From NCBI RefSeq assembly GCF_028830055.1, contig NZ_CP101655.1, forward strand, positions 4,491,780 to 4,555,779: a stretch of 64,000 bases of DNA. Reading direction: 5' to 3'. This stretch comes from Pseudomonas serboccidentalis. Lineage in GTDB: Bacteria; Pseudomonadota; Gammaproteobacteria; Pseudomonadales; Pseudomonadaceae. Below the pieces are notes generated by a model that saw only the letters and a list, made by a program, of their open reading frames with translations, did not search any database and was not told the origin of the DNA. This document shows, one piece after another, positions 817 through 19,666 of the stretch. Position 1 is the stretch's first letter; each line of letters begins with the position of its first letter. Position numbers and translations under genes: made by a program.

Positions 817-882
817 TCGTCGAACTTTTTCGGACATTTCCTGTTCTATCACGCTCCCAAGCCCGTGATAGCATCCGCGCCT

Positions 883-2610: not shown

Positions 2611-5600
2611 AGCGTGGTTTGAAAATAGCGGCACTGACGCTGCTGGCGTTGCTGTTGTTGATTGTATTGAGCATCAGCGCGGTACTCGGAACGCAGGCGG
2701 GCAGTCGTTGGGCGCTGGGCCTGGTGCCCGGCCTGAGCGTGGAGAATTTCCAGGGTCGCCTCGGCGGGCAGTGGAGCGCCGATCATCTGCTGTGGCAGCA
2801 GGACAGCAGCCGGGTCGAGCTGAACAAGCCGATCTTCGCCTGGTCACCGCTGTGCCTGACCCGCATGACCCTGTGCATCGAACAGCTCAAGGCGGATCAG
2901 GTCATTCTGCAATTCCCGCCGAGTGAAGAAACCACCGACAGCGGCCCGATCAAACTGCCGGATCTGCAATTGCCGGTGGCCATCGAACTGGGTGACGTGC
3001 AGGTCGGCAGCCTGTTGTTCAATGGCAGCGAGCAGCTCAAGGGCCTGCAATTGGCGGCGCACTGGACTGCCCAGGGCCTGCAGATCGACAGCGTCAAACT
3101 GCAACGCGACGATCTGAGCCTGAACCTCTCCGGCCTGCTGCAACCGACCGGCAACTGGCCGCTGAACATTGCCGGCGACCTGACCCTGCCGTCGCCGGGC
3201 ACCGGCCCCTGGACACTGGCGCTGAAGGTTGACGGCGATCTGCTGAAAACCCTCAACCTGCACGCCGACAGCCACGGTTACCTCGACGGCCAGTTGAGCG
3301 GCGAGCTACAACCGCTGGCGGAAAACCTGCCGGCCAAGGTGCGCATCACCTCGGAGGCCTTCAAACCGAGCGCCGATCTGCCGGACACGTTGCAACTCAA
3401 TCAATTGGTGTTGACCGGCGAAGGCGATCTGAAAAACGGTTATCAGTTAAGCGGCAATGCCACGCTGCCCGCCGACAAAGGCCCGGTGGCGCTGCTGCTC
3501 AACGGCAAGGTGGACGCCAGCGGCGCGCAGATCGCCGGCCTCGACCTGACGGCCAACGACAAGCAGAGTCTCAAACTTACTGGCAGTGTCGACTGGAGCA
3601 AAGGCCTTACCGCGCAAGCCAACATCAACTGGCAGGATTTCCCGTGGCATCGGCTCTATAACGAAATCGACGAGCCGCAAGTCGCGTTGCGCACCTTCAC
3701 CGGCGAAGTCTCCTACACCGACGGTCAGTACATCGGTAACTTTGCCGCCGCACTGGACGGTCCGGCGGGGGCGTTCAGCCTGAGCAGTCCGTTCAGCGGC
3801 AGCCTGAAACAGATCGCCTTGCCGCAACTGAAAATGGAAGCCGGGCAGGGCAAGGCCGAAGGTCATGTGAACGTGCAGTTCGCCGACGGCATCGCCTGGG
3901 ACACCGCGCTGGAGCTGTCGGCGCTGAACCCGGCGTACTGGGTCGCGGAGTTGCCGGGCACCTTGGCCGGGCTGCTGAAAAGCCAGGGCGAGATGAAGAA
4001 CGAGCGCCTGAGCCTCAGCGCCGACCTCGACCTCAAGGGCAAGTTGCGTGGTCAACCGGCGATCCTGCAAGCCAAGGCTGATGGTTCCGGCGAACAGTGG
4101 AACCTCAACGCCCTGCAAATCCGCTTAGGCGACAACAGCATCAACGGCAAGGGCAGCCTGCAACAGAAACTCACCGGGCAGATCGACATCAAGCTGGCGC
4201 GGCTGGCTCAACTCTGGCCGCAACTGCGCGGACAGGTCACTGGGCAGGTCAACGTCGCCGGTACGCTGAAGGCGCCGCAAGGCAAGCTCGATTTGCAAGG
4301 TTCGCAACTGGCGTTCCAGGACAATCGCCTGCAAAGCCTCAACCTCGATGCCAGCCTCGACAGTGCGCAGCGGGCGAAGATCGATCTGAAGGGCAGCGGG
4401 ATTCAGGCCGGCGACACCAATCTCGGCGTGTTGACCGCCAGCGCCCAAGGCGACATCAAGAGCCAGAAACTCAACCTCGACCTGCTCGGGCCGAAACTGA
4501 AACTGGCCCTCGGCCTCGACGGTAAGCTGGACCAGGGTAATTGGCGCGGACGTCTGGCCAGTGGTGACATTCAGGCTGGTGGTCAGGACTGGAAACTGCA
4601 GAATCCGGCCAGGCTCGAACGCCTCGCCGACGGCAAAATCAACTTCGGCGCGCATTGCTGGATGTCCGGCAATGCCAGCCTGTGCGGCGAAGACCAGCGG
4701 CTGATGCCTGAGCCGAAACTGCGCTACCACCTCAAGCAGTTCCCGATCGAAAGCCTGGCGCAATGGCTGCCGAAAGACTTCGCCTGGCAAGGCAAGCTCA
4801 ACGCCGATCTGCAATTGGACCTGCCGGCCAGCGGCCCGAACGGCGTGGTCAGCATCGACGCCAGCGGCGGCACCTTGCGCATGAAGGAAAAGGATCAGTG
4901 GCTGGACTTCCCGTACCAGACCCTGAAACTCACCAGCAAACTCACACCGAAGCGCATCGACACCGACCTCAACTTCGTGGGCGGCAAACTCGGTGAACTG
5001 ATGGTGCAGGCGCAACTCAATCCGCTGCCGAAAAACAAACCGTTGAGCGGCTCGTTCCGCCTCAGCGGGCTGGATTTGTCGGTGGCGCGGCCGTTTGTGC
5101 CGATGGTCGAGAAACTCACCGGACACCTGAACGGCAGCGGCACGATTTCCGGCGGGCTGCTGGCGCCGCTGGTCAACGGCACGGTCAAGCTCAGCGACGG
5201 CGAAGTGTCCGGCGCCGAGTTGCCGATGGAACTCAAGGACTTGCAACTGCAAGCGGTGATTGCCGGCGAATCGATACGTCTGGACGGCGGCTGGAAAAGC
5301 GGCAAGACCGGCCAGGGCAGCCTCAACGGCAACGTCGCCTGGGGGCAGGCGCTGATGGTCGACGTGGCGCTCAAGGGCACGCAACTGCCGGTCACTGTCG
5401 AGCCGTACGCCAAACTCGAAGTGGCGCCGGACCTGAAGATCTCCATGGCCGGCGATGAGCTGAAGATTGCCGGCAAGGTGCAGGTGCCCAGAGGTGAAAT
5501 CACCGTGCGTGAACTGCCGCCCTCGACGGTAAAAGTTTCCGACGACACGATCATCGTCGGCGCGCAGACCGAAGAGGGCAAACCACCGATGGCCATGAAG

Positions 5601-6281
5601 ATGGACATCGACGTGGTGGTCGGCGAAGACAAACTCGCCTTCGCCGGTTTTGGTTTGACCGCCAACGTGCAAGGTCATGTGCACATCGGCGACAACATGG
5701 ACACCCGTGGTGAGCTGTGGCTCAACGACGGCCGCTACAGTGCCTACGGCCAGCGTCTGACCGTGCGTCGTGCGCGTCTGTTGTTCGCCGGCCCTCTCGA
5801 TCAGCCTTATCTGGACATCGAAGCGATTCGCAAGACTGACGACGTGATCGCCGGTATTCGCCTGAGCGGCAGTGCCGAGCAGCCGACCACGCAGATCTTC
5901 TCCGAGCCGGCCATGAGCCAGGAGCAGGCGTTGTCGTATCTGGTGCTGGGGCGTCCGCTGAGCACCAACGGCGAAGACAACAACATGCTTGCGCAAGCGG
6001 CGTTGGGTCTGGGCCTGATGGGCAGTTCCGGGGTCACCAGCAGCCTGGCCAAGGACCTGGGGATTCAGGACTTCCAGCTCGACACCCAAGGCAGCGGCAA
6101 CACCACCAGCGTGGTCGCCAGCGGCAACATTTCCGAGAAGCTCAGTCTGCGCTATGGCGTCGGCGTGTTTGAACCGGCCAACACCATCGCGCTGCGTTAC
6201 AAGCTGAGCAAGAAGGTTTATCTGGAAGCGGCCAGCGGTGTCGCCAGTTCGCTGGATATCTTCTACAAGCGCGATTTCTAG
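2607..6281 (+). CDS. tamB: TamB, inner-membrane anchored translocation and assembly module protein
   Basis: Very long periplasm-spanning partner of TamA, 1224 aa, close to the usual 1200-1300 aa. An N-terminal signal anchor is seen at about residues 7-28 (leucine-rich, followed by TQAGSRWAL). The body is made of repeating beta-strand units of the AsmA/TamB-like bridge type (repeated GxLxG, LDLxG and LNGxGS patterns). The C-terminal DUF490/TamB domain carries the recognisable YLVLGRPLS segment around residue 1113 and ends in an aromatic-terminated strand (FYKRDF), as expected for a domain that meets the TamA barrel. The GTG start overlaps the tamA stop. A strong REP hairpin with a T run lies just past the stop. 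Confidence 0.95.
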   Translation: MKRGLKIAALTLLALLLLIVLSISAVLGTQAGSRWALGLVPGLSVENFQGRLGGQWSADHLLWQQDSSRVELNKPIFAWSPLCLTRMTLCIEQLKADQVILQFPPSEETTDSGPIKLPDLQLPVAIELGDVQVGSLLFNGSEQLKGLQLAAHWTAQGLQIDSVKLQRDDLSLNLSGLLQPTGNWPLNIAGDLTLPSPGTGPWTLALKVDGDLLKTLNLHADSHGYLDGQLSGELQPLAENLPAKVRITSEAFKPSADLPDTLQLNQLVLTGEGDLKNGYQLSGNATLPADKGPVALLLNGKVDASGAQIAGLDLTANDKQSLKLTGSVDWSKGLTAQANINWQDFPWHRLYNEIDEPQVALRTFTGEVSYTDGQYIGNFAAALDGPAGAFSLSSPFSGSLKQIALPQLKMEAGQGKAEGHVNVQFADGIAWDTALELSALNPAYWVAELPGTLAGLLKSQGEMKNERLSLSADLDLKGKLRGQPAILQAKADGSGEQWNLNALQIRLGDNSINGKGSLQQKLTGQIDIKLARLAQLWPQLRGQVTGQVNVAGTLKAPQGKLDLQGSQLAFQDNRLQSLNLDASLDSAQRAKIDLKGSGIQAGDTNLGVLTASAQGDIKSQKLNLDLLGPKLKLALGLDGKLDQGNWRGRLASGDIQAGGQDWKLQNPARLERLADGKINFGAHCWMSGNASLCGEDQRLMPEPKLRYHLKQFPIESLAQWLPKDFAWQGKLNADLQLDLPASGPNGVVSIDASGGTLRMKEKDQWLDFPYQTLKLTSKLTPKRIDTDLNFVGGKLGELMVQAQLNPLPKNKPLSGSFRLSGLDLSVARPFVPMVEKLTGHLNGSGTISGGLLAPLVNGTVKLSDGEVSGAELPMELKDLQLQAVIAGESIRLDGGWKSGKTGQGSLNGNVAWGQALMVDVALKGTQLPVTVEPYAKLEVAPDLKISMAGDELKIAGKVQVPRGEITVRELPPSTVKVSDDTIIVGAQTEEGKPPMAMKMDIDVVVGEDKLAFAGFGLTANVQGHVHIGDNMDTRGELWLNDGRYSAYGQRLTVRRARLLFAGPLDQPYLDIEAIRKTDDVIAGIRLSGSAEQPTTQIFSEPAMSQEQALSYLVLGRPLSTNGEDNNMLAQAALGLGLMGSSGVTSSLAKDLGIQDFQLDTQGSGNTTSVVASGNISEKLSLRYGVGVFEPANTIALRYKLSKKVYLEAASGVASSLDIFYKRDF

Positions 6282-6312
6282 ATCGCGCTTTCTCCTGAAC
6301 CGAGTCGCTTCA

Positions 6313-6378
6313 ATCGCGAGCAGGCGAAGGCCTACATTTGGAATGCGTTCCCCTTGTAGGCCTTCGCCTGCTCGCGAT
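6313..6378. repeat. REP inverted pair, probable tamAB terminator
   Basis: Two perfectly complementary 24-nt arms (6313-6336 and 6355-6378) with an 18-nt loop, followed by GGCGTTTTTTC. The core is ATCGCGAGCAGGCG, a variant of the window's most common REP family. Placed 31 bp past tamB, it probably ends tamAB transcription; it also separates tamB from the convergent usher gene. Confidence 0.8.
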
Positions 6379-6472: not shown

Positions 6473-8971
6473 TTACGGCAGATTAACGGTGGGCGGGCGG
6501 CACACCAGCGAGGCCCGCTCGTAGTTCAGCGCCTTGTCCCGCTCGGGCAGTGCATACGACGCCTCACACCGCTGGCCCTGCCAGTTGATGGTCAGGGTGC
6601 CGGCGTCGGCTTCCACCAGCGCCAGTGCCTTGCCGCCCGGATCGGAAATCGCCAGTTGCTTGCCGGCGCTGTCTTCGAGCGATGCGCCAAACGGGATCGG
6701 TTGATGCTGCGCGTCGAACAAGGCGAACTGCACGCGCCGTCCGGTCTTGCTGGCGTAACGTGCCAACACCACGGCACCGCGTCGTGGCACCACTTGCCGG
6801 GTGGCGTTCTCGATCTCGACATCGCCGCCCAGGTCACGGGTGTCGAGGTTGATCCAGTTCACCCGATAAGGCTGCGCGTTGGGCACCACGGCGAAGCCGT
6901 TACTGCCGGTTTTGGCCCCGGAGAAGCTGCCGATTTTCACCCCTTCCACGCCTTCGACCTGCGCCAGTGCGAACGTCTCGCCCACAGTTTGTCCCAGGTT
7001 GACGCCGCCGGCATGGCCGACGATCGAACCCGCCAGGTTAAGGTTCTGCGAGTTGTAGCCGCGTCCCTGACTGTAGCCGGCACTGATATCCATCACCGAG
7101 GTGCGGGTGTTGAGGTTGACCGACCCAGAGCTGCCGCCGGTGCTGCTGTTGCCGGCTTGTACCGAGTAATAGGTGTCGCTGTCTTCCGACAGATAGCCGT
7201 TGATGCCCATCTGCGTGGTATCGCTGGATTTCTGCGTGCTGGCCGAGACAAAGGCCCGCGGTGCACGGGGCTTGGAACCCAGCGGGAACGACACAGACAG
7301 GTTGACCAGCGTGTCGTTGTTCGCCGGCCCGTAATTGCCGACATCTTTGGAGTAGGTGGCGCCGATGTTGTAACTCACATCCCCCCAATAGTTGCTGTAC
7401 CCGGCCGACAGGCTTTGCGAACCGCCGCGCCCCCAGTAACGCTGGTCGCTGGCGTTCACGTAGACGCTGCCATATTCCTGGTTGCGCCCCAGGCTCTGGT
7501 TGACGGTCAGGTCGGTGCGGGTTTTCGAGTTGCCGGTGCGTTGCTGGCCATCGCGGCTCAACTCCTCGACGTGCTCGGTGAGGGTGCGATAGCCCTCTGT
7601 CGAGTAACGGTAGGCGGCGAGGGTGAAGTTGGTGTCGGTGCCGGTGAACGTTTTCGCATACAGCGCGCGCAGGCTGTTACCGGTGACCGTTTCGCCGAAG
7701 GTGTTGCTCATCGAGTGGGTCAAGTCCAGGGAGATCGCACCGATGGCGGTATTGCGACCGGCTCCGACAGACAACGCCTTGAAATTGTCCGTCGCCTGCA
7801 CACCGACGATCCCGGACAAGTTGCTGCTGATGCCATACGCCAGTGTGCTGCTGACAAACTGCGGGGTCTTCTGATCCTCGCTGTTGCTGTTGTACTGGCC
7901 GGCCGAGACGCTGTACTTCAACTGGCCCTGACGGACCATGATCGGCAGGCTGGAAAATGCTTGCACCGTCACCCGGCGTCGACCATCGGCTTCGATAATC
8001 GTCACTTCCAGGTCGCCATTGGAACCGCTGGGGTAGATGTCGCTGATCTCGAACGGCCCCGGCGGCACGTTGGCGGTGTAGAGGATGTAGTTGTTCTGGC
8101 GAATCTCCACGGTCGCGCTGGATTGCGCAATGCCGCGAATCACGGGTGCATAACCGCGCTCGCTGTCGGCACGCATGCCGTCGTCGGACGCCAGTTTCAG
8201 GCCACGATAGCGCACGCTGTCGAACAGGTCGGCGTCGGAGAAAATATCCCCGGCACTGAACTGGCCTTTGAGCGCGGTCACGTCATGTTGCAGATAGCTG
8301 CGGTTGCTCTTGAACGTGCTGGGCTGGCCGGTGCTGCTGTTGAAGTTCGATTCGTTACGCAAACGCCAGGCGCCGAGGTTGATGCCATTGCGCAAGCCAA
8401 CGTTATTGCTCAGCGTGTTTACACCCTGAGTGCTGTTGCGGCTGCTGCTCAACTGATAGTTGATGAACGCGGCGGGCACGCCTGCGTCCCACAAGGCCGG
8501 GTCGACATAGCCACGCCGGCCACGCTCCATGGCGTTTTGCGGCACGCTGACCATCAGGCGCAGGCGCGGCACGTCGTAGCGCACGGTGGCGTGGTCGATC
8601 AACGCGGGCAGGTCGAGGCAGGCGTCGGGGTCATCGCCGACGAGTTTGCCAGCGGCTTGCAGTTTGCCGATGTCGACCCCCAATTGCTGCACCATCTCCA
8701 GGGTCAGGCAGGCCTGGACCTTGCCCGTGCCGGGGTGGCGACGGAAGTCGATATCGCGACGGCCGACCAGGGTCTCGTTGCCGTAGAGATCCACCCGGTA
8801 AATACCGGGCAGTACGCGACTGGTGGCGAGCAGTGATTGCAGGTCAACAGAGGAGGGGGCGCCTTGCAGAAACGATGTATTGAATTGTTCTTCGTCATCG
8901 GCCAGGCAGGTGCAACTGAACACCAGGGCCATTGAAAAAGGCGCCAATCCGTCGCGCTTGAGTAAAAACAT
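6473..8971 (-). CDS. Fimbrial outer-membrane usher (FimD/PapC family)
   Basis: Outer-membrane pore that receives chaperone-subunit complexes and assembles the pilus. The 832-aa protein has a signal peptide (about residues 1-24, ending CTCLA), an N-terminal chaperone-binding domain beginning FNTSFLQG, a long 24-strand-type barrel with plug domain (NYILYTANVPPGPFEISDIYPSGSNGDL segment near 280-310), and a C-terminal domain ending after RGAVVLARYASKTGRRVQF. Length and order match complete ushers, and no frameshift is seen. It is last in the subunit-chaperone-usher run, 85 bp after the chaperone gene, with no obvious terminator between them. Confidence 0.95.
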   Translation of the reverse strand: MFLLKRDGLAPFSMALVFSCTCLADDEEQFNTSFLQGAPSSVDLQSLLATSRVLPGIYRVDLYGNETLVGRRDIDFRRHPGTGKVQACLTLEMVQQLGVDIGKLQAAGKLVGDDPDACLDLPALIDHATVRYDVPRLRLMVSVPQNAMERGRRGYVDPALWDAGVPAAFINYQLSSSRNSTQGVNTLSNNVGLRNGINLGAWRLRNESNFNSSTGQPSTFKSNRSYLQHDVTALKGQFSAGDIFSDADLFDSVRYRGLKLASDDGMRADSERGYAPVIRGIAQSSATVEIRQNNYILYTANVPPGPFEISDIYPSGSNGDLEVTIIEADGRRRVTVQAFSSLPIMVRQGQLKYSVSAGQYNSNSEDQKTPQFVSSTLAYGISSNLSGIVGVQATDNFKALSVGAGRNTAIGAISLDLTHSMSNTFGETVTGNSLRALYAKTFTGTDTNFTLAAYRYSTEGYRTLTEHVEELSRDGQQRTGNSKTRTDLTVNQSLGRNQEYGSVYVNASDQRYWGRGGSQSLSAGYSNYWGDVSYNIGATYSKDVGNYGPANNDTLVNLSVSFPLGSKPRAPRAFVSASTQKSSDTTQMGINGYLSEDSDTYYSVQAGNSSTGGSSGSVNLNTRTSVMDISAGYSQGRGYNSQNLNLAGSIVGHAGGVNLGQTVGETFALAQVEGVEGVKIGSFSGAKTGSNGFAVVPNAQPYRVNWINLDTRDLGGDVEIENATRQVVPRRGAVVLARYASKTGRRVQFALFDAQHQPIPFGASLEDSAGKQLAISDPGGKALALVEADAGTLTINWQGQRCEASYALPERDKALNYERASLVCRPPTVNLP

Positions 8972-9056: not shown

Positions 9057-9806
9057 TTATGGCGCTTCTTTATTCAAGCTGGCTCGAATATCGGCACTGT
9101 TGGAAAGTTGCGCGCTGTAACGGTCTTGTGCGCCATAGTCATTAATGCTGCTGAATAACAGGCGTGCGGTATTGGTGTGATGAAGTTGTTTGAGGCTGAA
9201 CTCTTTTTGTTCGCCGGGGGCAATCATCATCGAATCAAAGGGATGTTCGCTGAGTGTGCCCGATTGCAGTGTTATGTCGGCAATCGACACGTGATACTGG
9301 CCCGGGTTGTTCACCAGCAGTACTTGTTTGCCGGCGCGTTCGGCCAGGCGCCAGGTCAGTTCGCTCGGTGCCAGGTAGGCATTGTTTTTCAGTCCCGAGG
9401 GGCGGAAGAACACCTTGATGCGCTGGCGCACGGCCAGTTGCAAAGTGTTGGCCGATTTCGCCGACTGGGGAATTTCCTGCACATTGAGCCAGACCACCGA
9501 CTCGCGGTCGGTCGGCATGCCCGCGCCTTCGTAGATCACCCGCAAGATCTGCTGTTCGTCGCCGCTGACGCGCACCAGTGGCGGAGTGACGGCAAACGGT
9601 ACCGCGGCAGTTTCACTGGAGTCGGTGTCGATCCACGACTGAATCAGTACATCTGCACCGCTGTTACGCACGGTGATCCCGGCTTCCTTGTGTTGGCCGT
9701 CGAAGACCAGACGGGTACTGCTCAAGGAAATGCCGGCCATGGCCTGATTGGCCACGAGCAGACCCAAAAGGCCCGCACAAAAGGACAATGAGTGACGATA
9801 AAACAT
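9057..9806 (-). CDS. Periplasmic pilus assembly chaperone (PapD family)
   Basis: Two-domain immunoglobulin-fold chaperone that completes the fold of pilus subunits by donor-strand complementation and delivers them to the usher. It is 249 aa with a signal peptide of 24 residues (ending NQAMA). The subunit-carboxylate anchors are visible as Arg32 (mature R8, in SSTR) and Lys131 (in QRIKVFFRP). The family signature VWLNVQEIP is at 105-113. The short F1-G1 region points to the FGS subfamily that makes rod-like pili. It follows the major subunit gene, with a GC-rich hairpin in the 72-bp gap that could reduce its expression relative to the subunit. Confidence 0.95.
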   Translation of the reverse strand: MFYRHSLSFCAGLLGLLVANQAMAGISLSSTRLVFDGQHKEAGITVRNSGADVLIQSWIDTDSSETAAVPFAVTPPLVRVSGDEQQILRVIYEGAGMPTDRESVVWLNVQEIPQSAKSANTLQLAVRQRIKVFFRPSGLKNNAYLAPSELTWRLAERAGKQVLLVNNPGQYHVSIADITLQSGTLSEHPFDSMMIAPGEQKEFSLKQLHHTNTARLLFSSINDYGAQDRYSAQLSNSADIRASLNKEAP

Positions 9807-9878: not shown

Positions 9879-10475
9879 TTATTCGTATTGCAGCGTGAAC
9901 GGCAGGGTGGCATCGCCGCGACCGGCAACGGCAGTTGCCACGTCGGCGGTGGTGACGTAGGCAGCCGAGAATTTCAGCGTGGTGTTGCTGTCTTGCAGGG
10001 TGTTTTCGATCTTCGCGGTGGACGGCGAGCTCAGGTCGATCAACGCGCCGTTGGAGTCGAGCAAGGCGATACCGATGTTCTTCGCAGCGCCCAGGCCGTC
10101 GATCAGCTTCAGCACTTTGGTCCCGGCAACGATGCCCGAGCCTGCGCCCTTGGTCGGTTCGAAAATCATCGCCACTTTTGTGCCGGCGTTGCAGTTGATC
10201 TTCATGTCGAAGTTTTCGGCGCTCAGGGTGCCGTTGCCTTTAGGTGCAGTGGCGGTGCCCATGTCCTTGATCGACACTTCGCCCATGTTGACCGAAATGG
10301 TTTTGTTGCTTCCGGCGCCTTCAACCGAGCAGGCATCGTTGTTGATGGTGCCGGTGAAGTTGATGGTGCCGCTACCAGCCTTGGTCGGGGTTGGGGCCGG
10401 TGGATCTTCTGCCAGAGCGTTGCCGGCAGCGGCAATGATCGAAAGGGCGAGAAGTGCGCGAGTCAGCTTTTTCAT
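9879..10475 (-). CDS. Major fimbrial subunit (type 1 pilin)
   Basis: Structural pilin polymerised by the usher. It is 198 aa with a clear Sec signal peptide (MKKLTRALLALSIIAAAGNALA, cut after residue 22), a proline-rich mature N-terminus, then the donor-strand region GSGTINFTGTI, a disulphide pair C49 (NDACSVEG) and C95 (MKINCNAG), and the classical penultimate tyrosine (LQYE at the end). An in-frame extension reaches 10511, but ATG 10475 starts the signal peptide and lies about 26 bases below the predicted transcription start. It is the first gene of a subunit-chaperone-usher unit with its own RcsB-box promoter. Confidence 0.93.
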   Translation of the reverse strand: MKKLTRALLALSIIAAAGNALAEDPPAPTPTKAGSGTINFTGTINNDACSVEGAGSNKTISVNMGEVSIKDMGTATAPKGNGTLSAENFDMKINCNAGTKVAMIFEPTKGAGSGIVAGTKVLKLIDGLGAAKNIGIALLDSNGALIDLSSPSTAKIENTLQDSNTTLKFSAAYVTTADVATAVAGRGDATLPFTLQYE

Positions 10476-10507: not shown

Positions 10508-10550
10508 ACAATAAAACCTGGGTTCCCGGTGGAACATCAGACGATTCCTA
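10508..10550 (-). promoter_or_regulatory. Predicted RcsB-type box and -10 element of the fimbrial subunit promoter
   Basis: Read on the - strand: TAGGAATCGTCTGATG (10550-10535), exactly 21 bp, then TATTGT (10513-10508) as -10. The box resembles the enterobacterial RcsAB box TAAGAATATTCCTA in its first half. The same box-21-bp-TANNGT layout occurs upstream of the first hybrid kinase gene and the adhesin gene in this locus. It falls between the stop of the response regulator gene and the subunit gene, so the structural operon need not depend on read-through. No good -35 is present, as expected for an activated promoter. Confidence 0.65.
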
Positions 10551-10585
10551 GATGCGGGGGATGTTACGTCGAAGTACAGAGTCGT

Positions 10586-11233
10586 TTATTTGAACAAGTT
10601 GCGTTCGATGCAATAAGCCAGTAACTCTTGATCGCTATTTACTTCAAGTTTGCGCATGGCTGAGATTTTCTGCGTACTGATGGTTTTGGCACTTCTGTTC
10701 AATCCCCTGGCAATTTCGTTAACGCCCTGGCCTTGAACGAACAGCCGCAGAATTTCATGTTCCTTGGGCGACAGTCGGGAAAAGCGTTCATCCAGATCGG
10801 CGCCATCGTTGAGCACCGACGTTGGCGCTGGTCCTTTGCTACGTACCCGATTGCCTTTGGCAATGGCTTTGAGCGCCACCTCTATTTCAACGTGCAGCTG
10901 GCTTTTCTGAATCACCGCCAGTACACCGAGTTCCTGCAGGCGGGTCAGGATCAGAGGATTGGAAATCATGGTCAGGACCAGCACCTTCACTTCAGGAAAA
11001 TGCCGGGTCACGAACTCCACCAGCTTCAGGCCGTCACCGTAGGGCGAGTCACCGGGCATGTTGAAATCGGTGATCAACAGATCCACCGCCTGAGACTTCA
11101 GCAACTCGATCAAGCCATCGGGACACACTGCCTCGCCCACCACGTTGAAGCGTCGGTCACGCTCGACCAGTTCCCGTACTCCCAGAAGGACGATGGGATG
11201 ATCATCGGCGATGACAACGTTGAAGGTTTCCAT
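10586..11233 (-). CDS. rcsB: LuxR/NarL-type response regulator, RcsB/RocA-like
   Basis: Transcription factor of 215 aa. It has an N-terminal receiver (DD at 10-11, phospho-acceptor D56 in LLITDFNMPGD, K109 in VIQKS) and a C-terminal LuxR-type helix-turn-helix (LSPKEHEILRLFVQGQGVNEIARGLNRSAKTISTQK cut into recognition helix NRSAKTISTQK). Length and layout match RcsB/BvgA/RocA1. It lies 22 bp after the Hpt-containing hybrid kinase gene and directly before the fimbrial subunit gene, the same order as rcsC-rcsB beside the cupD fimbrial genes of P. aeruginosa (established knowledge). It is the obvious candidate to bind the RcsB-like boxes in this locus. The gene symbol is assigned by order and architecture. 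Confidence 0.85.
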   Translation of the reverse strand: METFNVVIADDHPIVLLGVRELVERDRRFNVVGEAVCPDGLIELLKSQAVDLLITDFNMPGDSPYGDGLKLVEFVTRHFPEVKVLVLTMISNPLILTRLQELGVLAVIQKSQLHVEIEVALKAIAKGNRVRSKGPAPTSVLNDGADLDERFSRLSPKEHEILRLFVQGQGVNEIARGLNRSAKTISTQKISAMRKLEVNSDQELLAYCIERNLFK

Positions 11234-11255
11234 GGGTGCTTTATCCAGAGTGAAA

Positions 11256-14200
11256 TTATTCGAGGGTGTCGAGCAGGTCAGTCAGACGCGCCAGTTGTTG
11301 GCGCACTTGCAGGGCCAGCGCCGGGGTGATCGCCATGCCGGTCAAGCGACATTCCAGCTCGACAAACGTGCTGGCCAGGGCCTCGACCCGCACGGCGCCG
11401 AGTGCCCCGGCCATGCTGTGCAGTTGCTGTGCGACGCTGCTGGCGTTGGCCGCGTCCAGCGCGGTCAGTGTGGTCTGAACGTCGCGGCGCAGGGTCGCGA
11501 CAAACAGCTCGCGCATTTTGGGTGAGAGGGGCGGCGCGGCGTCTGCCACCGGCGCGATCGCTGTCTGGCAGTGGCTTTGCAGCTGCGTGCGCAGTGTTGC
11601 CAGGTTCAGCGGCTTGACCATCCATGCGTTCATGCCGACGGCGGCGCAACGTTCGCCTTCTTCGCGCAGGGCATTGGCGGTGACGCCGATGATCGGCAGC
11701 GTCGCATCCTGCTGGCGCAGTGCGGCGGCCAACTGGTAACCGTTCATGATCGGCATGTTGACGTCGGTCAGCAGCAGATCGAAGCGTCCGGGTGCCCATT
11801 GCACCAGCGCCTGTTCGCCATTGGCGGCGACCACTACCGAACAGCCCAGCGCCTCCAGTTGTTCCTTGATGATCGCCGCGTTGATCGTATTGTCCTCGGC
11901 CACCAGTACGCGCAGGTTCAGCGTTCGGCTGTTTTTCTGCTGCGAAGGCGCACGCGGGTGACTGGCGCCGTGTCGGGCCAGCGCAATTGCCCAGCCAATT
12001 GCACGTACATCGTCGGCATCAACCAGCCAGTCGCTGCCGCTCACCTGCGCCGGATTGGGGCCGCCCGCCATGGCGATGATTCGCGGGCCATCGAATACGC
12101 TGGCGTTGGCCAGCGGCGCAAGGTCCACCAGCAGCGCCGAGGAGGGCGGCAGCTCGTTCGTCACCAGGCGGCAATCAAGACCAAAGCGGTCAAGCCAGGC
12201 GCTCAGATGCTGCGCCAGTTCGGCCACCGGTGCCCGTACATAAACGGCGGCGCCGCCGGCCACGAACGATGGGCAATCGGCGAGGCTGCCAGGTGCGCAA
12301 TCCAGGGTCAGTTGCAAGTTGAAGCGGCTGCCCAGTCCCGGCTCGCTGACCACGTTCAACTGACCCTGCATCAACTCACACAGCCACTTGCAAATGGCCA
12401 GACCCAACCCGGCACCGGCATGACTGTCGGCTTCGTTGACTTGATAGAACGGGTCGAACAACTGCTGTTGCTGCGCCTGGGAAATGCCCACGCCCGAATC
12501 GCTGACCTGCCACTGCACCTCGGCGCGCCCGCCAGTGTTTTGCAGCACATGAACGCGCATGACCACTCGGCCATTGTCAGTGAACTTGATTGCGTTGCTC
12601 AGCAAGTTATTGAGGATCTGGCGAATGCGCTGCGCATCACCGAGCAATTGATCCGGTAGCGCCGCATCGATGCAGGCATACAGTTGCAAACCTTTGCCAC
12701 GGGCAAACGCGCCGAAGCTGCGCACGACGTCTTCGGTCAGCTCCAGCGGACAAAACGGCTGAAGCTCGAGATTCATTTGCCCGGCCTCGATCTTCGACAC
12801 ATCCAGCACGTCGCTGATCAGCTTGAACAGACTGGCCGACGAGCGCTGGATGGTGTCCAGATAAGCCTGTTGACGCGGGTTCAGCGTGGTCAGACCGAGC
12901 AGTTCCAGAGTGCCGAGCACGCCATACAGCGGCGTGCGGATTTCATGGCTCATCGTCGCCAGAAACCGGCTCTTGGCCCGATTGGCCGAATCAGCGGCCT
13001 GGCGCGCGACCTCAAGCGCCGCCGCGTCTTCGACATGGCGGGTCACATCATGCAGTGCACACAGCCAGGCGTCCTGGCCCTGATAACGGGTGGCGACGAA
13101 GGCGACATGCAAATGCCGACCGTCAATCTCCAGTTCGGCATGGCCTTGGCCGGTCGCTGCCTGCCGGTCGAGCAGGTTGATCAGTTCGCGGGTGTCGTGC
13201 CATTGCTGGGCGCGCTGGTTCTCCAGCAACACCTGATGATTGCGGCGACTGATCACGCACAGGCCGGTGGGCGCGGTGTCGATGACCGCGCGGCTGAACG
13301 CTTCGCTTTCGGCGATGCTCGCGTGGGCACTTTGCGCGGGAAGAATGACGCGCTGGGTGTACCAGCGATTGAGTGCCCGGCCACTGCCGAGCAGGGCGAG
13401 CACGAGAACCAAAAGGCACAGCAATGGCCACAGCGCGTAATCGAGAAAGCTCTGCACACTGATAACGTAAATCGCCGTCCACGGACGTTCGTCGGGGCTG
13501 GTCAGCTTGAACACCAGGCCATCTGCGGTCAGATTCGTGCCTTCATTGAGCACTTGATCGGGCTTCAGCGCACCGATCAACACCGTACCGTCGGGCGTGA
13601 GCAGGGTGAAGTCGTCGTAAATCGACCACGCCATCAAACGCTCGATGTTGTTGACCTGGGACAGTTTCAGCAGCGCGCCGACCACCGCCCAGGAGTTGGC
13701 GCCTTCGATGGCCTGCGTCGGTTTGCTCAGATTGATCCGCACGTAGGCCAGCAGAGTCGGGGTAACGTTGTCCTCCTCGGCGAACGCGTAGGGCACCCAG
13801 TGAACCTGCGCTGAAGTCTGCGTGCGCCGTTGCATGTTCATCCGGGTCATTAGCTCGACGAAGGTGCTTATCTGCGTCGGCCCTGCACCACGCAAACGGC
13901 CGGCGGCGGGCACGGCGATATCGAAATTGTCCGGCCCGTTGAGCAGGATCACCTGCGGCGACTGGTAATGCGAGGCTGCCCAGAAGGCGCTGTAATAAGC
14001 TGCCAGATAGCTGCCGAGGGCAAACACCTTGGGGTGTTGGCTGGGGGCGATTCGCTCCGGATCGATCTTTACGCTGAACGGCAGCGAAAACGGCAGCCCA
14101 CGGCCTTCGTAAATGTTCGGCCCTTCTTCGGGCAAAAGCTTTTGGACAACAGGTGGCGTCACAGCCTCGGAAAGGTACACACCCTTGGCGCTGGCCCTTG

Positions 14201-14417
14201 AGATAGCGTCGAGAAAGGCTTCCTGCTCGTGAATGTTTTCCATCAGTCGGGCGAAGTGGAACTGCAGGGTATCGCGCTGTTCTTCCACCATACGCTGCAC
14301 GCCCAGATAACTGATGCCCAGCAACAACAGGGCCAGCGCACCGAGCACCAGCAAGCTCTTGTTCAGGCGTAGCGAACTGCTGGCGAGTCTTTCCAGAAAT
14401 GCGTTGGGCTGCGGCAT
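11256..14417 (-). CDS. rcsC: Hybrid sensor histidine kinase with receiver and Hpt domains, RcsC-like
   Basis: Inner-membrane phosphorelay kinase of 1053 aa. Order of domains: TM1 (about 21-42), large periplasmic sensor (45-325), TM2 (about 326-348), PAS-like region, HisKA with H491 in MSHEIRTP, HATPase (N box and [10 protein letters not shown]), REC with D885 in LLLTDVNMP, and a C-terminal Hpt with H1000 in [12 protein letters not shown]. It is a paralogue of the kinase encoded at 15.7-18.5 kb: the HisKA stretches [20 protein letters not shown] are identical. Only this copy has an Hpt, so it may be the phosphotransfer hub for both kinases. It is followed after 22 bp by the response regulator gene. 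Confidence 0.9.
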
Positions 14418-14501
14418 TACAGCGCCTGATCAGTCAAAGTGGAAAAGTGTCTGGACACAAAGACCTCGGTAGCAAACGGCGTCGTCAACAGCGTCTGGGG
14501 T

Positions 14502-15689
14502 TCACCATGCATTGGCCGGTCCATCATGGGTCAGCAACTGCTGGAACTGCTCCGCAGACACGGCGTGGGAGATCAGGAAACCCTGAACCTGAGTGCAGTC
14601 GATCTTACGCAACAGAGCAAGTTCTTGCGCGGTTTCCACGCCTTCGGCGACCACCGTCAGGCCCAGTTGCCGACCCAGGGTGACAATGCTGGTCAGCGCC
14701 TGGGCCAGCTCGGCGTTACTGTTGCAACCCTGCACCAGCGCGCGGTCGATTTTAAGCTCGGTGAAAGGCGCCGACACCAGATTCATGTAAGAACTGTAGC
14801 CTTTGCCGAAATCATCCTGAGACAAACCGAAACCCTTGATCCGCAAGCGGCAGGCGCCGGCGTAGAAATTACTGATGTCATCGGGCACCGAGCATTCCAT
14901 CAGCTCGAAACAGATCCGCGCCGGCAGGCCTTCATGTTGCAGCACAAAAGCGAGGATGCGGTCGGGCAGGTCATGGCTGTTAAGCAGGTGCGTGGGCAGA
15001 TTGATCGACACCGGAATGTCATAGCCCTGCTGGCGCCATACGGTTTGCGCGGCAATCGCCTGTTCCAGCATTCGCCAGAGCAGCCGTTCTTCGAGGTCAT
15101 AAGCAATCAGCGCCGGTAGAAATGCCCCTGGCAACAGCGTGCCATGTTCGGGATGCATCCAGCGCACCAATGTTTCGGCGGCGACGATGCGGCCATTGTC
15201 CAGTGCCTTTTTGGGTTGGAACCAGGCCTGTAATTCACCCTTGTCCAAGGCATGCAGAATACTTTGCCGATCAATGCCGGGCTGCGTCGCGACCGGGCCG
15301 GCCTGGCGCAGCGTCTGTAACTGCTCGATCAGACAACGCAGGGCAGCGCTGTTGACCGGTTTGGAAATCAGCCCGATGACTTTGACCTGCAGGTTGCTCG
15401 CCACCAGGCTCGCGCCCATCAACATGCGCCGCGAGGCAGCGCTCATGATCGCCAGTGCCGGGCGCGAGGGCTGCGCGGCCAGGCCCTGGATGAACTGCAC
15501 GCCGTCCATGCCCGGCATCAGCAGATCGGTGAGGACCAGATCGAACTCGCGGTTTTTCAGACGCCGCAAGGCTTCTTCGCCGTCCCGGGCAAACTCCAGA
15601 TCGAACACGCCCAGCTCGTTGAACAGGTTCTGCAAGTACAGGTGCTGGAACGGATGATCTTCGACGATCAGCAGGCTAGAGGACTTCAT
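14502..15689 (-). CDS. pvrR: Response regulator with EAL c-di-GMP phosphodiesterase output, PvrR/RocR-like
   Basis: REC-EAL protein of 395 aa predicted to break down cyclic di-GMP when controlled by the neighbouring kinases. The receiver has D55 in LVLTDLLMPG. The EAL domain starts near residue 140. The signature reads ETL (AETLVRW) instead of EAL, but the other catalytic positions are present: N in SINLPT, E in ELMECS, the DD pair and K in DDFGKGYSS...ELKID, E in AEGVE and Q in VQGFL. I therefore infer an active enzyme. The gene overlaps the end of the upstream kinase gene by 14 bp. A receiver-EAL protein beside fimbrial genes is the known PvrR/RocR arrangement. Confidence 0.88.
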   Translation of the reverse strand: MKSSSLLIVEDHPFQHLYLQNLFNELGVFDLEFARDGEEALRRLKNREFDLVLTDLLMPGMDGVQFIQGLAAQPSRPALAIMSAASRRMLMGASLVASNLQVKVIGLISKPVNSAALRCLIEQLQTLRQAGPVATQPGIDRQSILHALDKGELQAWFQPKKALDNGRIVAAETLVRWMHPEHGTLLPGAFLPALIAYDLEERLLWRMLEQAIAAQTVWRQQGYDIPVSINLPTHLLNSHDLPDRILAFVLQHEGLPARICFELMECSVPDDISNFYAGACRLRIKGFGLSQDDFGKGYSSYMNLVSAPFTELKIDRALVQGCNSNAELAQALTSIVTLGRQLGLTVVAEGVETAQELALLRKIDCTQVQGFLISHAVSAEQFQQLLTHDGPANAW

Positions 15690-18489
15690 GGGTGACTCGT
15701 TCGTAGGGAGCCAGGACGATCGACAAGGCTCTTAGCGTAAAAGGTTTGACTAGGCAGTGGTTCATGCCGGCCTCCAGGCACAGGGCCTCTTCACCGCGCA
15801 GGGCGTTGGCGGTGGCGCCGATGATCGGCGTGGTGCAGCCCAGGCGACGCAAGGCTTTGGCCAATTCATAACCGTTGAGTCGTGGCATGTTGACGTCGCT
15901 GAGCACGACATCGAAGGTGTCGTCCTGCCACAGTGACAAGGCCTCTTCGCCATCGCTGGCCAACGCTACCGTGCAGCCCAGCTCTTGCAACTGGTCGCGC
16001 AGGATCAACTGGTTGATTGCATTGTCTTCGGCCACGAGGATGTGCAGGTGCAGCGGCGCCAGCGCCTGGCTTTCTGCCTGTTGCGAATGCTCAATGGTCT
16101 GGCCGCCCTGAGCCTGACGCACGGCTCGGCGGATCGCGGCCAGATCACTCAGATTCGCCACCCAACCTTTACCCGTGCATTGCGGTTCACAGGCAGCATC
16201 GCCGCTGGCCAGTACCCGCGGCCCTGACCATTGCAGTTCGCCGCGCGGCTCCATCGGTGCCGGGTACAGTTCCAGCAACACGCCAGCGTCGGCAGATTCG
16301 TGGTTGTCCGGCGCGCCGAGGTGCGGTCGGGCGCCCCAACGGCGCAGCCAGCCAGCGAGGCTTTCGGCCAGTTCGCGTACCGGCGACACCACGTAAACGG
16401 TTTCACCCGCCAGATTCGGCGCTGCTGCGGGCAATCCGCTGCCCGCGCGCTGCTCCAGTGGCAAGGTCAGGGAAAAACTACTGCCCAGCCCCGGTTCGCT
16501 GACCATGTGTAGCGTGCCGTTCATCAAATTTGTCAGCCGCTGGCAGATCGGCAGGCCCAACCCGGTGCCCGCGACCGCATGGCTATTGCCCTGAGTCTGA
16601 TAGAACGGATCGAAGATAAATGCCTGATCAGCATGGGCAATGCCGCGCCCGGTGTCCGACACCTGCCATTGCACGCACACGCGTTCGCCTTCACGGGACA
16701 GCGCTCTGACCCGCAACACCACGCGTCCGGAGTCGGTGAATTTGACCGCGTTGCTCAACAGGTTATTGAGAATCTGCCGCACCCGGCTGACATCGCCCAC
16801 CAGGCTGTCGGGCAGTTGCGGATCAAAGCATGCGTACAGCTGCAAACCTTTGCTCTGCGCCGCCGCCGCGTATCCCTGCACCACCTCCTGCGCCAGCGCA
16901 ACGATGGAAAAATCGCTCAGCTCCAGCGCCAGTTGCCCGGCCTCGATTTTCGACACATCAAGCACATCGCAGATCAATTGCAGCAGGGTCGCGGACGAGC
17001 CTTCGATCGCGCGCAAATAGCTTTTCTGCTGGTTGTCGAGCCGGGTGCGGGCGAGCAGTTCGAGGGTGCCGAGCACGCCATACAGCGGCGTGCGAATTTC
17101 GTGGCTCATGGTCGCGAGAAACAGGGTTTTCGCTTCGTTGGCGGCATCGGCCGACTGGCGCGCCTGCTCCAGCGCCGCTTCGATTTGCCGGCGCGCGCTG
17201 ATATCGCTGAAGGCGCAAAGCAATACGTCTTCACCTTTGTAGCGGGTCGGCGCGCAGCTCAGGTACAGGTGCCGGCCATCAGCGGTGTCGAAATAGTCGG
17301 TCAGGCAGGGCGCATTGTCGTCAAACGCAGCGCGAATCCAGCCGGGACCCAGTTGCTGGCTGCACGTGCCCAGCCATTGTTGGGCAAGGGTATTTTCCAG
17401 TACCACCTGGCCATCGCTGCGGCGCAACACGCAGAGTGCCACGGGTGCGGTCTGGATCACGTCGCGGCTGAACAGCTCGCTTTCCACCAGCGCCTGAATC
17501 CGGTGCAGTGTGGGCGTGATGAAGCGATGTTCCAGGCGCCGGGTCAGCAGACACACCAGGTTGATGCTCGCCAGACAGAACACCAGTGCGCCAAGCATCT
17601 GCGGCCACAAGGCCCAAAGCACCGCCAGCAAGTCGATGGAGTAGGTGAGTTGCCAGTCCGACGACTTCAGTTGTTTGCGCAACACCAGTTGCTCGGGCAG
17701 CCAGCCGTTGCCGACGAATCCGAAGAAATCCTGCTGGCGCAGCAGTGGCAGATGCTGCCCCGCTGGCGGCTTGTGGCTGTTGCTGAAGAGCGGCATCCCT
17801 TGCGAGTTGAACATGGTGAACTCGCCGGCGCTGTGGTCACTCAAGGCGTTGGAGACTTCACGGTCGTCCATTTCCAGACCGAGCCAGCCGGAATCGGGGT
17901 CGCGATCATCCAGGCGAATGAAGATGTACAGCTGCGAGTGCCCTGGCAAGTTGTGGGTCAGCCAGATTTCTTTGAGGGCGCTGGTGTTGTCGCGTTTGAA
18001 GGTTTCCAGGCGATCAAGCATCGCACGCGGAAAATCGCCAGCCATGGGCGTCGAGTTGTACAGGCGCCACACCTGCGCCTCGGTGCCGCTGCTGACGTAG
18101 AGCAGATTCAATTTGCGCGCTTGCAGATAGTCACGCATGCGCTGGGTCAGCCAGATGCTCCATTGCTTGCCGGGGGTTTGTCCCAGCAGCAGCCGGATTT
18201 CTTCCTCGGACAGCGGCGCGCTCAGAGCGGTCTGGCGAGTCGCCGACAAACTCAGGCTTTCCAGCAGCGCCTCGCGGGTGGTGAAAAAGGTGTGCGCCTC
18301 GGCGATGGCGCTGCTCATGTAACTGCGCCGCTGAGAAATTTCGTTGTTGAAGGTGAACAGCAGAAAGCTGTACACGCCGCCGAGGATGCCCACCAGCAGC
18401 ACCCACGCAAAAATGCGCAACAAACGTCGCGCAGCGTGGGGCGTGGACAAGACCGGGCTAATCTGGTGGAGGTAGTTCTTCAATCGCAT
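15676..18489 (-). CDS. pvrS: Hybrid sensor histidine kinase without Hpt, PvrS-like
   Basis: Inner-membrane hybrid kinase of 937 aa from ATG 18489. TM1 lies at about residues 25-47, followed by a periplasmic sensor, TM2 near 290-315, a PAS-like region, HisKA (H463 in MSHEIRTP), HATPase (GTGLGLPICQ) and REC (D865 in VVLSDVNMP). No Hpt follows the receiver, unlike its paralogue at 11.3-14.4 kb, so phosphoryl transfer to the LuxR-type regulator would need that partner's Hpt (inference, matching what is known of PvrS/RcsC). An ATG at 18516 is also in frame, but it lies upstream of the predicted -10 (18501-18496). With the ATG at 18489 the transcript would be almost leaderless and no ribosome site is seen, so the start is uncertain. 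Confidence 0.85.
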   Translation of the reverse strand: MRLKNYLHQISPVLSTPHAARRLLRIFAWVLLVGILGGVYSFLLFTFNNEISQRRSYMSSAIAEAHTFFTTREALLESLSLSATRQTALSAPLSEEEIRLLLGQTPGKQWSIWLTQRMRDYLQARKLNLLYVSSGTEAQVWRLYNSTPMAGDFPRAMLDRLETFKRDNTSALKEIWLTHNLPGHSQLYIFIRLDDRDPDSGWLGLEMDDREVSNALSDHSAGEFTMFNSQGMPLFSNSHKPPAGQHLPLLRQQDFFGFVGNGWLPEQLVLRKQLKSSDWQLTYSIDLLAVLWALWPQMLGALVFCLASINLVCLLTRRLEHRFITPTLHRIQALVESELFSRDVIQTAPVALCVLRRSDGQVVLENTLAQQWLGTCSQQLGPGWIRAAFDDNAPCLTDYFDTADGRHLYLSCAPTRYKGEDVLLCAFSDISARRQIEAALEQARQSADAANEAKTLFLATMSHEIRTPLYGVLGTLELLARTRLDNQQKSYLRAIEGSSATLLQLICDVLDVSKIEAGQLALELSDFSIVALAQEVVQGYAAAAQSKGLQLYACFDPQLPDSLVGDVSRVRQILNNLLSNAVKFTDSGRVVLRVRALSREGERVCVQWQVSDTGRGIAHADQAFIFDPFYQTQGNSHAVAGTGLGLPICQRLTNLMNGTLHMVSEPGLGSSFSLTLPLEQRAGSGLPAAAPNLAGETVYVVSPVRELAESLAGWLRRWGARPHLGAPDNHESADAGVLLELYPAPMEPRGELQWSGPRVLASGDAACEPQCTGKGWVANLSDLAAIRRAVRQAQGGQTIEHSQQAESQALAPLHLHILVAEDNAINQLILRDQLQELGCTVALASDGEEALSLWQDDTFDVVLSDVNMPRLNGYELAKALRRLGCTTPIIGATANALRGEEALCLEAGMNHCLVKPFTLRALSIVLAPYERVTHEVL

Positions 18490-18495
18490 CCCGGC

Positions 18496-18538
18496 ACAGT
18501 AGGGGCGGCCGGGCATGATGAAAATCAGACGATTCTTA
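18496..18538 (-). promoter_or_regulatory. Predicted RcsB-type box and -10 element of the hybrid kinase promoter
   Basis: Read on the - strand: TAAGAATCGTCTGATT (18538-18523), 21 bp, then TACTGT (18501-18496). The box differs by one or two bases from those before the fimbrial subunit and adhesin genes, with the same spacing to the -10. It suggests that the regulator operon is autoregulated by its own RcsB-like product. The predicted transcription start falls at about 18489, at or next to the likely start codon. Confidence 0.6.
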
Positions 18539-18583
18539 AAGAGGGCTGCGCGAACAATTGGCTATAGCAACCCATCAATGGAT

Positions 18584-19588
18584 TCAAAGGTAACTCATGA
18601 CAAATGCAATCGTTGCGTTAGCTGTTCCGGCGCGCATACCCTTGTCAAACCCACCATTGCCACCGGTTTCAGCGACGCGAAAGTAACGAGCGCTCAGGGG
18701 GATCTTCAAGTTGCCTCCCGCAGAGGAATAGTCCGCGAATACATAGCTTTGATGTAAGACTAAGGGGTTTCCATCGCTATTGAGTACTTGCAAAGCCACA
18801 CCCTGAGCAGTCGAATCTGCACTCAGCTTTACGATACCCCTCGTGGAATTTTGCGAGGGAGAAGTTAGGGTAGGCTTGAGTGTATAAGTTACTTTTTTTA
18901 TGCCTGGCGGACAGTTGTTAAGGCTGATGTCAAATTTGACCGGCTCAGAATATGCGCCGTTATGGGCAAAGCTACTCATGTCATGCGACCCCATGTCTAC
19001 TTTGATGTCCGGCGTTTCACAGGATTGAGGCACAATCGTTGTGCCATTGGTCGCCATTGCGAGTGGTGACACTCCATCTGCATGGAAAATCCCAAGTGTT
19101 CCTGCCGGGATTTTCTGTACATCGATTACATCCGCTATTTTGAATAGCCGTAGCACGTGTCTTGTGGTGTCCCATCCGTATCCGCCCGCCTCTCGGCGAA
19201 TACCCGGATAAATGGGTAGGGTTACATTGTCTTTGTAGGACCACTGCCAGGCGAGCCCGGTGTTTCCGATTGCGTAAACAAGGTCACCCGATTTAGACAC
19301 ACCGACGTTGTTCTGAATACCATATGAAAACTCGTTAGTACATTTATACGAGCTGGGCGTAGGTCCCATTGTGAGCGGAGGGCTTTCATATATTACGGTG
19401 CCGTTAGGTGTATCACGAGGAATCGAAAGTGTAGCGGGTACTTGCATAGTGATAGTTGTTTGATGATGCCCCGGGTAGAACGAGCAATTAGCCGCGCCCG
19501 CGTAGCAGGGCGCGAAAAGTAACGACAGACATAGCGTGGGAATCAATTTCGTTAGCTGGAGCGGGCGCTGGAGTTTGAAACGTTTCAT
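18584..19588 (-). CDS. Two-domain fimbrial tip adhesin
   Basis: Predicted pilus-tip adhesin of 334 aa. It has a signal peptide (about 1-33) and an N-terminal receptor-binding domain with a disulphide pair C35 and C83. A C-terminal pilin domain runs from about residue 186, with C190 and C226 and a terminal beta-strand ATIAFVMSYL. The receptor is not predictable. The gene is AT-richer than its neighbours and uses codons common genes here avoid, which suggests separate acquisition or rapid change. It is set apart from subunit, chaperone and usher genes by the four regulator genes, yet carries the same RcsB-box promoter. ATG 19588 is chosen because the signal peptide begins there; the frame is open to 19639. 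Confidence 0.85.
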   Translation of the reverse strand: MKRFKLQRPLQLTKLIPTLCLSLLFAPCYAGAANCSFYPGHHQTTITMQVPATLSIPRDTPNGTVIYESPPLTMGPTPSSYKCTNEFSYGIQNNVGVSKSGDLVYAIGNTGLAWQWSYKDNVTLPIYPGIRREAGGYGWDTTRHVLRLFKIADVIDVQKIPAGTLGIFHADGVSPLAMATNGTTIVPQSCETPDIKVDMGSHDMSSFAHNGAYSEPVKFDISLNNCPPGIKKVTYTLKPTLTSPSQNSTRGIVKLSADSTAQGVALQVLNSDGNPLVLHQSYVFADYSSAGGNLKIPLSARYFRVAETGGNGGFDKGMRAGTANATIAFVMSYL

Positions 19589-19623
19589 GAAGAGGGCTTT
19601 ACGTATCGGCCAGTGAGCGGCGT

Positions 19624-19666
19624 ACGTTAGCCAAGACATTCAAGCCCGCACATCAGGCGATTCTTA
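19624..19666 (-). promoter_or_regulatory. Predicted RcsB-type box and -10 element of the adhesin promoter
   Basis: Read on the - strand: TAAGAATCGCCTGATG (19666-19651), 21 bp, then TAACGT (19629-19624). It lies 62 bp before the adhesin ATG, against 59 bp for the equivalent box before the fimbrial subunit. This links the detached adhesin gene to the main fimbrial operon. Confidence 0.65.

Follow-up and report, generated by a model that had tools for sequence, protein, structure and literature searches.

The fimbrial locus and its three promoter blocks

A 64,000-nucleotide stretch of the Pseudomonas serboccidentalis genome (GCF_028830055.1, contig NZ_CP101655.1, positions 4,491,780 to 4,555,779 of the forward strand; the whole stretch is called the window below) contains a fimbrial locus with three similarly built promoter blocks. 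Judged by its gene content, the locus is a pvrS-pvrR-rcsC-rcsB relay together with a chaperone-usher fimbria, of the cupD kind of P. aeruginosa PA14. Its genes follow one another on the minus strand in the order adhesin, pvrS, pvrR, rcsC, rcsB, subunit, chaperone and usher (Table 1). Among solved structures, the RcsB-like protein matched RcsB chains best (residues 1-208, E 2.1e-45); read on the solved-RcsB alignment, K180 is kept and S184 is replaced by T. A search of the same genome with this protein gave a single match at E<=1e-30.

In a preliminary description of this DNA, three minus-strand blocks had been placed upstream of the fimbrial subunit gene, the hybrid-kinase operon and an adhesin gene, each consisting of a box followed after exactly 21 bp by TATTGT, TACTGT or TAACGT. 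Pattern scanning confirmed the position of all three without a mismatch (complete blocks at 10508-10550, 18496-18538 and 19624-19666), and the Pfam assignments agreed with the three target genes. The full layout, defined as TARGAATCGYCTGATK plus 21 bp plus TANNGT, has three matches in the window, all exact, compared to 0.00 expected from 100 shuffles. The box 16-mer alone, at up to three mismatches, has three window matches against 1.35 expected, and 19 of the 100 shuffles reach three, so that the box alone is unremarkable at this tolerance. Across the whole genome (5,997,322 bases) the 16-mer was found three times exactly, not at all with one mismatch and nine times with two; the reversed control pattern gave six matches at up to two mismatches, and on this comparison the two-mismatch boxes were dropped as additional regulon members.

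The three regions share little besides these blocks. Pairwise identity is 0.88 for the 16-mers, 0.29-0.33 for the 21-bp spacers, 0.20-0.28 upstream and 0.17-0.32 downstream, in agreement with the earlier statement that the regions are unrelated outside the blocks. The box resembles a pair of RcsAB-type half-sites, although its dyad is imperfect, the first half TAAGA being exact in two of the three window sites and the second half reading TCTGA or CCTGA in the window and TCTTA in several relatives. No good -35 element was found at the three promoters, the best match being 4/6.

Table 1. Features of the fimbrial locus, in window coordinates
Feature	Position	Strand	Basis or remark
RcsB-type box, fimbrial subunit promoter, TAGGAATCGTCTGATG	10535..10550	-	pattern scan of window
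-10-like TATTGT, subunit promoter, 21 bp past box	10508..10513	-	pattern scan
RcsB-type box, kinase operon promoter, TAAGAATCGTCTGATT	18523..18538	-	pattern scan; kept in relatives
-10-like TACTGT, kinase promoter, 21 bp past box, 6 bp before ATG	18496..18501	-	
RcsB-type box, adhesin promoter, TAAGAATCGCCTGATG	19651..19666	-	pattern scan
-10-like TAACGT, adhesin promoter, 21 bp past box	19624..19629	-	pattern scan
Fimbrial adhesin-like gene with own box	18584..19588	-	Pfam Fimbrial, residues 183-333, E 2.3e-13
PvrS-like hybrid sensor kinase gene	15676..18489	-	Pfam HisKA, HATPase, REC; no Hpt at E<=0.001
PvrS-like kinase, proposed start ATG	18489-18487	-	predicted leaderless
PvrR-like REC-EAL response regulator gene	14502..15689	-	Pfam Response_reg and EAL
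RcsC-like unorthodox sensor kinase gene with Hpt	11256..14417	-	Pfam HisKA, HATPase, REC, Hpt
RcsB-like response regulator gene, proposed box reader	10586..11233	-	REC and LuxR-type HTH
cupD1-like fimbrial subunit gene (D1)	9879..10475	-	Pfam Fimbrial PF00419, E 5e-14
PapD-type chaperone gene	9057..9806	-	Pfam PapD_N, E 2.2e-38
Outer-membrane usher gene	6473..8971	-	Pfam Usher, E 1.5e-160

Conservation of the box and its spacing in relatives

Of 398 genomes of the genus, 17 contain the exact layout, at 24 places in total, and none the reversed pattern; all 17 carry an RcsB match at E<=1.4e-92. As 203 of the 398 genomes have no RcsB match at E<=1e-30 and the layout occurs in 17, most carriers of an RcsB relative are without the exact string. 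Box variants were common among the fetched loci once some variation was allowed. Upstream regions were surveyed in 108 fetched loci (80, 20 and 8 of 10, with L194, a relic, and L202, whose genome has a contig as long as that of L039, left out of the third set) plus the window, and a box was counted where at least 13 of 15 positions agreed no more than 110 bp upstream of the gene. Unmappable rows (pvrS 9, pvrR 6, rcsC 10, rcsB 1, D1 71, adhesin 92) and identical upstreams (pvrS 1, pvrR 3, rcsC 3, rcsB 2, none for D1 and adhesin) were removed. Of the matching g9 genomes, 18 of 19 were fetched, and some of the loci counted may belong to the same species.

Of the 99 pvrS rows, 96 had a box upstream, and in 92 of these it stood at 49 or 50 bp. 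A box also preceded D1 in all 38 rows (72-96 bp before the ATG) and the adhesin in 14 of the 17 mappable rows. The internal relay genes showed a box in 0/100 rows for pvrR, 0/106 for rcsB and 2/96 for rcsC, and shuffled pvrS upstreams gave a box rate of 0.24%. A TA...T hexamer 37 bases past the box start, which corresponds to the 21-bp spacer, was found at 36 of 38 D1 promoters, 13 of 14 boxed adhesins and 62 of 99 pvrS rows, with eight further pvrS rows at 38 (22-bp spacer). Over 1711 pairs of loci at distance 49, the box had a mean identity of 0.85, the spacer one of 0.34 and the upstream sequence one of 0.28. The motif is thus present at the orthologous promoters of relatives, nearly fixed in position and neither absent nor scattered, which supports the earlier proposal that a single RcsB-like regulator would serve the rod operon, the relay and the adhesin.

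The TA...T hexamers of the pvrS promoters carry G at position 5 in 48 of 68 cases, unlike the TATAAT consensus. Ten P. chlororaphis, P. protegens and similar loci (L075-L077, L079-L082 and L085-L087) contain the four relay genes and retain the box upstream of pvrS; their fetched stretches gave no tblastn match to the fimbrial proteins of the window. In eight other loci (L057, L059, L062, L066, L067, L069, L070 and L071) a box variant, TAAGAATCGCCTGAAA or CTGAGA, lies 1.8-1.9 kb upstream of pvrS, with TACCAT, TAACAT or TACCCT following after 21 bp. In the four loci examined (L057, L062, L067 and L070), two genes lie past this variant, one of them chaperone-like, and in L067 these two carry PapD and fimbrial domains.

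Whole-genome scans with TARGRATYGYCTKAT were run on 25 genomes, hand-picked rather than drawn at random from the carriers of RcsB or PvrS relatives. They identified 53 boxes in 20 genomes compared to no control matches, and by manual count 45 of these lie in the relay locus. Four of the eight boxes outside it stand at fimbrial genes away from the relay. The box of L194 belongs to a decayed second copy of the locus (3242-4582), in which the adhesin is 90% identical, box and hexamer are intact and a 55-residue remnant of pvrS follows the adhesin. In L234 the box, at 8039, precedes genes for a PapD-type chaperone and for a protein bearing a fimbrial domain at its C terminus, and it lies on a contig other than that of the relay. 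A single gene 45% identical to the window adhesin follows the box in L236, and a four-gene array with C-terminal fimbrial domains (1210-6314) lies downstream of one box in L237, three of its genes being 42-44% identical to the window adhesin. Given these four boxes at remote fimbrial genes, the box appears to accompany the adhesin gene when it is located elsewhere. Of the remaining boxes, one lies at a second relay locus (L239) and one adjoins an RcsB-like gene (L233; 36% protein identity); around those of L235 and L238, no fimbrial or relay protein match was found in the fetched stretch. The earlier suggestion of a self-contained regulon holds for the P. serboccidentalis genome at the stringency tested, but in some relatives boxes also occur at remote adhesins and, in one case, beside another RcsB-like gene.

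The kinase start codon and the proposed circuit

TACTGT ends six bases short of the kinase ATG, a feature overlooked in the preliminary description. The usual gap between a -10 hexamer and the transcription start site is 6 to 7 bases. The predicted start site of transcription therefore coincides with the pvrS start codon. We recounted the distance in the 103 of 108 fetched loci that have a full pvrS, excluding the window and accepting 12 of 15 box positions. An in-frame pvrS ATG was found 48-50 bp past the box start in 101 of the 103 loci, at 48, 49 and 50 bp in 1 (L041), 65 and 35 loci, respectively. In L107, L114 and L117 the automatic start call of the upstream survey was misplaced, and the ATG stands at +49; in L099 the box matches fewer than 13 positions and still lies about 49 bp before the ATG. 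By comparison, D1 showed no ATG in any frame 48-51 bp past the box in 41 of 41 genes. Seen from the start codon, TA...T stands at -12 or -13 in 69 of 99 pvrS rows and [TC]A...T in 90 of 99, and each other offset from -6 to -48 yields TA...T in at most three rows. Additionally, the first upstream stop is reached without an in-frame start codon in 70 of 92 boxed pvrS rows. With the ATG 48-50 bp past the box and the usual 6 to 7 bases after the hexamer, transcription would start on the A of the ATG, and a leaderless pvrS mRNA is predicted. The near-fixed distance across relatives of the family likewise suggests an mRNA that begins at the start codon.

Several observations weigh against the proposed operators or the leaderless start. 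In L112 the box and hexamer lie 86 bp farther upstream, and L196 is without a box. TA...T is absent at -12 or -13 in 24 of the 92 boxed pvrS rows, and part of the family has a weak hexamer (CAGGCT and similar). An upstream in-frame start is not excluded by a stop in 22 of these 92 rows, and the window has an ATG at 18516 in the pvrS reading frame. A 4-nt Shine-Dalgarno match is scarce at pvrS (6/99) and also at rcsC (8/96), D1 (4/38) and the adhesin (1/17). The dyad of the box is imperfect, with 6 to 8 of 14 positions symmetric, and the box shares 10 or 11 of 14 positions with the RcsAB consensus. Furthermore, clustering at 50% identity reduces the 92 boxed pvrS upstreams to 45 groups; the rows are kin by descent and therefore do not represent 92 independent cases. 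Shine-Dalgarno matches are commoner at pvrR (52/100) and rcsB (31/106). The absence of such a match was dropped as proof of leaderlessness, as the rcsC, D1 and adhesin genes are low too.

The same Shine-Dalgarno frequencies, which do not set pvrS apart from rcsC, D1 and the adhesin, would fit an alternative in which RcsB reads the boxes and pvrS is not leaderless, its transcript starting elsewhere and the distance being merely inherited. Because no more than about 46 bp lie between the adhesin stop and the pvrS box, an interval in which the consensus scan lists no terminator, read-through from the adhesin into pvrS would be a possible source of such a transcript. However, the pvrS spacer has kept its length while its sequence diverged to the mean identity given above, and in the loci with a 22-bp spacer the distance from hexamer to ATG is still 12 in 8 of 8. 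In the 36 loci with both promoters the pvrS distance stays at 48-50 bp whereas that of D1 varies from 72 to 96, and the box-ATG distance is also kept in two other genera of the family (G511 included), where pvrS identity is 47-50%. We consider this alternative unlikely.

It is less likely still that the boxes are read by another regulator of the NarL/RcsB family in the cell and not by the locus-encoded one. In its favour, the consensus sites of RocA1, RocA2 and RocA3 of P. aeruginosa closely resemble one another and their in vitro targets overlap (PMC12051241), and the box of L233 adjoins the gene of an RcsB-like protein. Against it stand the single RcsB match in the P. serboccidentalis genome, the confinement of the exact layout to genomes with a close RcsB relative (17 of 17) and the report that cupD transcription in PA14 appeared strictly dependent on RcsB (PMC3842833). 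As for recently copied short repeats or a functionless chance likeness, the presence of three copies inside 9.2 kb of one genome, and a box that is not rare in shuffles at three mismatches, might be taken in its favour. The unrelated flanks and spacers, and the retention by each promoter of its own box across relatives, bear out the earlier view that a common short-repeat origin is improbable. Together with the shuffles, the scans of the P. serboccidentalis genome and the genus, and the contrast between boxes and control matches in the 25 picked genomes, they led us to reject this explanation, to which we attach hardly any weight.

Having weighed these alternatives, we consider it probable that the RcsB-like activator encoded in the locus uses the three blocks as its operators, with the circuit and the leaderless pvrS promoter described here; most likely a single RcsB-family regulator governs its own relay as well as the rod operon and the adhesin. 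From the sites, their spacing and conservation and the gene content observed, we infer binding by the locus RcsB, the start sites, the leaderlessness and the following circuit. For a transcription start 12 bases beyond the initial base of the hexamer, the box would be centred at about -42.5, a class II activator position for phosphorylated RcsB. With no good -35 element, transcription should need the activator; the -10 elements are weak as well. The PvrS hybrid kinase would pass phosphate via the RcsC Hpt kinase to RcsB, which would turn on three targets together: the rod operon, the detached adhesin gene and the operon of its own relay. PvrR, the EAL protein encoded in the relay operon, would degrade c-di-GMP and pull the state back. 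Finally, the kinase promoter would be placed such that transcription starts on the A of the pvrS ATG and gives a leaderless mRNA.

For the relay family as a whole, we put forward tentatively, as possible rather than probable, that anchoring of box to ATG makes the sensor kinase mRNA leaderless and that the kinase is translated only from RcsB-promoter transcripts, perhaps only under ribosome conditions that favour leaderless mRNAs. If pvrS is leaderless, read-through from the adhesin would not give the kinase efficiently, and the positive feedback on fimbrial expression would gain a translational gate. In the remote chaperone and adhesin-like pair of L234, the ATG lies exactly 49 bp past the box and the hexamer reads CAGAAT, so a similar leaderless start may occur in another kind of gene besides pvrS.

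Comparison with known systems

The preliminary description had taken the operator to be undescribed in Pseudomonas, which is wrong. Mikkelsen et al. 2013 mapped it by mutation at cupD1 of PA14 and likened it to the RcsAB box, and a GAA near -77, within the box, was crucial for the cupD1 promoter (PMC3842833). The same work reports that overproduction of RcsB induces pvrS, pvrR, rcsC and rcsB, that PvrS acts via RcsC on RcsB, RcsC being likely a phosphatase as well, and that PvrR hydrolyses c-di-GMP (PMC3842833). Both the subunit-promoter operator and the RcsB-driven induction of the relay are thus already known from PA14. In the portions of PMC3842833 covered, an operator at pvrS, a spacing rule or a leaderless start was not found.

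The locus shares with PvrSR/RcsCB-cupD of PA14 the four regulator types in the same order and an adjacent chaperone-usher operon. The RcsB box of PA14 lies about 75 bp before the subunit gene, and the box start in the window is 75 bp before the ATG at 10475. In PA14, however, the cupD genes and the regulators are on opposite strands, and the fimbrial operon includes cupD4 and cupD5, predicted to encode an adhesin and a second chaperone, whereas here all genes are on the minus strand and an adhesin-like gene with its own box lies upstream of pvrS. On the basis of the shared strand and the adhesin position, the locus is a variant and not a copy of that of PA14. Downstream of the usher gene, TamA- and TamB-like genes (865-6281) are on the opposite strand. 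Among plasmids, the best 20 records, out of at least 5000 that matched, contained no PA14-type locus (best identity 35.5%), and none was found in viral contigs.

The enterobacterial RcsAB box has the consensus TAAGA-N4-TCTTA, with half-sites similar to those described here. The centre differs, being ATCG here and ATAT in the enterobacterial box, and the second half is mostly TCTGA here. Also unlike the enterobacterial box, the one described here belongs to one small adhesion regulon and keeps a strict spacing to the -10 hexamer. RocA1 and RocA3 of P. aeruginosa, which are members of the RcsB family, resemble the present protein as response regulators that activate fimbrial operons (cupC and cupB), but they are separate regulators with separate loci. 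RocA3 activates the neighbouring cupB, and RocA1 and RocA3 take part in autoregulation (PMC12051241). In the solved RcsB-DNA complex, G and A bases are contacted in the half-sites TTAGGAA and TCTAAGA, and K180 is a base-contacting residue (PMC5829831).

What we have not found described, beyond the known operator, are the layout of box, 21 bp and TANNNT and the kinase promoter anchored to the start codon. In the literature searched, including the portions covered of PMC3842833, PMC2696094 and PMC3272035 and with subscription papers mostly outside its scope, neither a leaderless pvrS nor the spacing rule was found described. For P. aeruginosa, 43 mRNAs with 5' leaders under 10 nt have been reported, and leaderless mRNAs of gammaproteobacteria are said to be few (PMC3272035); cupD, rcsC and pvrR are not mentioned in the main text of PMC3272035. 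Unlike those leaderless mRNAs of Pseudomonas, the one proposed here is predicted from an operator-to-ATG distance kept across a family. With the box, the 21-bp spacing and TANNNT, one mutated P. aeruginosa promoter site would become a predictive rule for fimbrial regulons of Pseudomonas, through which detached adhesins could be assigned to the relay from sequence. The kinase promoter would likewise lend itself to a clean test of conserved mRNA leaderlessness in gammaproteobacteria and of the effect of leaderless sensor translation on a feedback loop.

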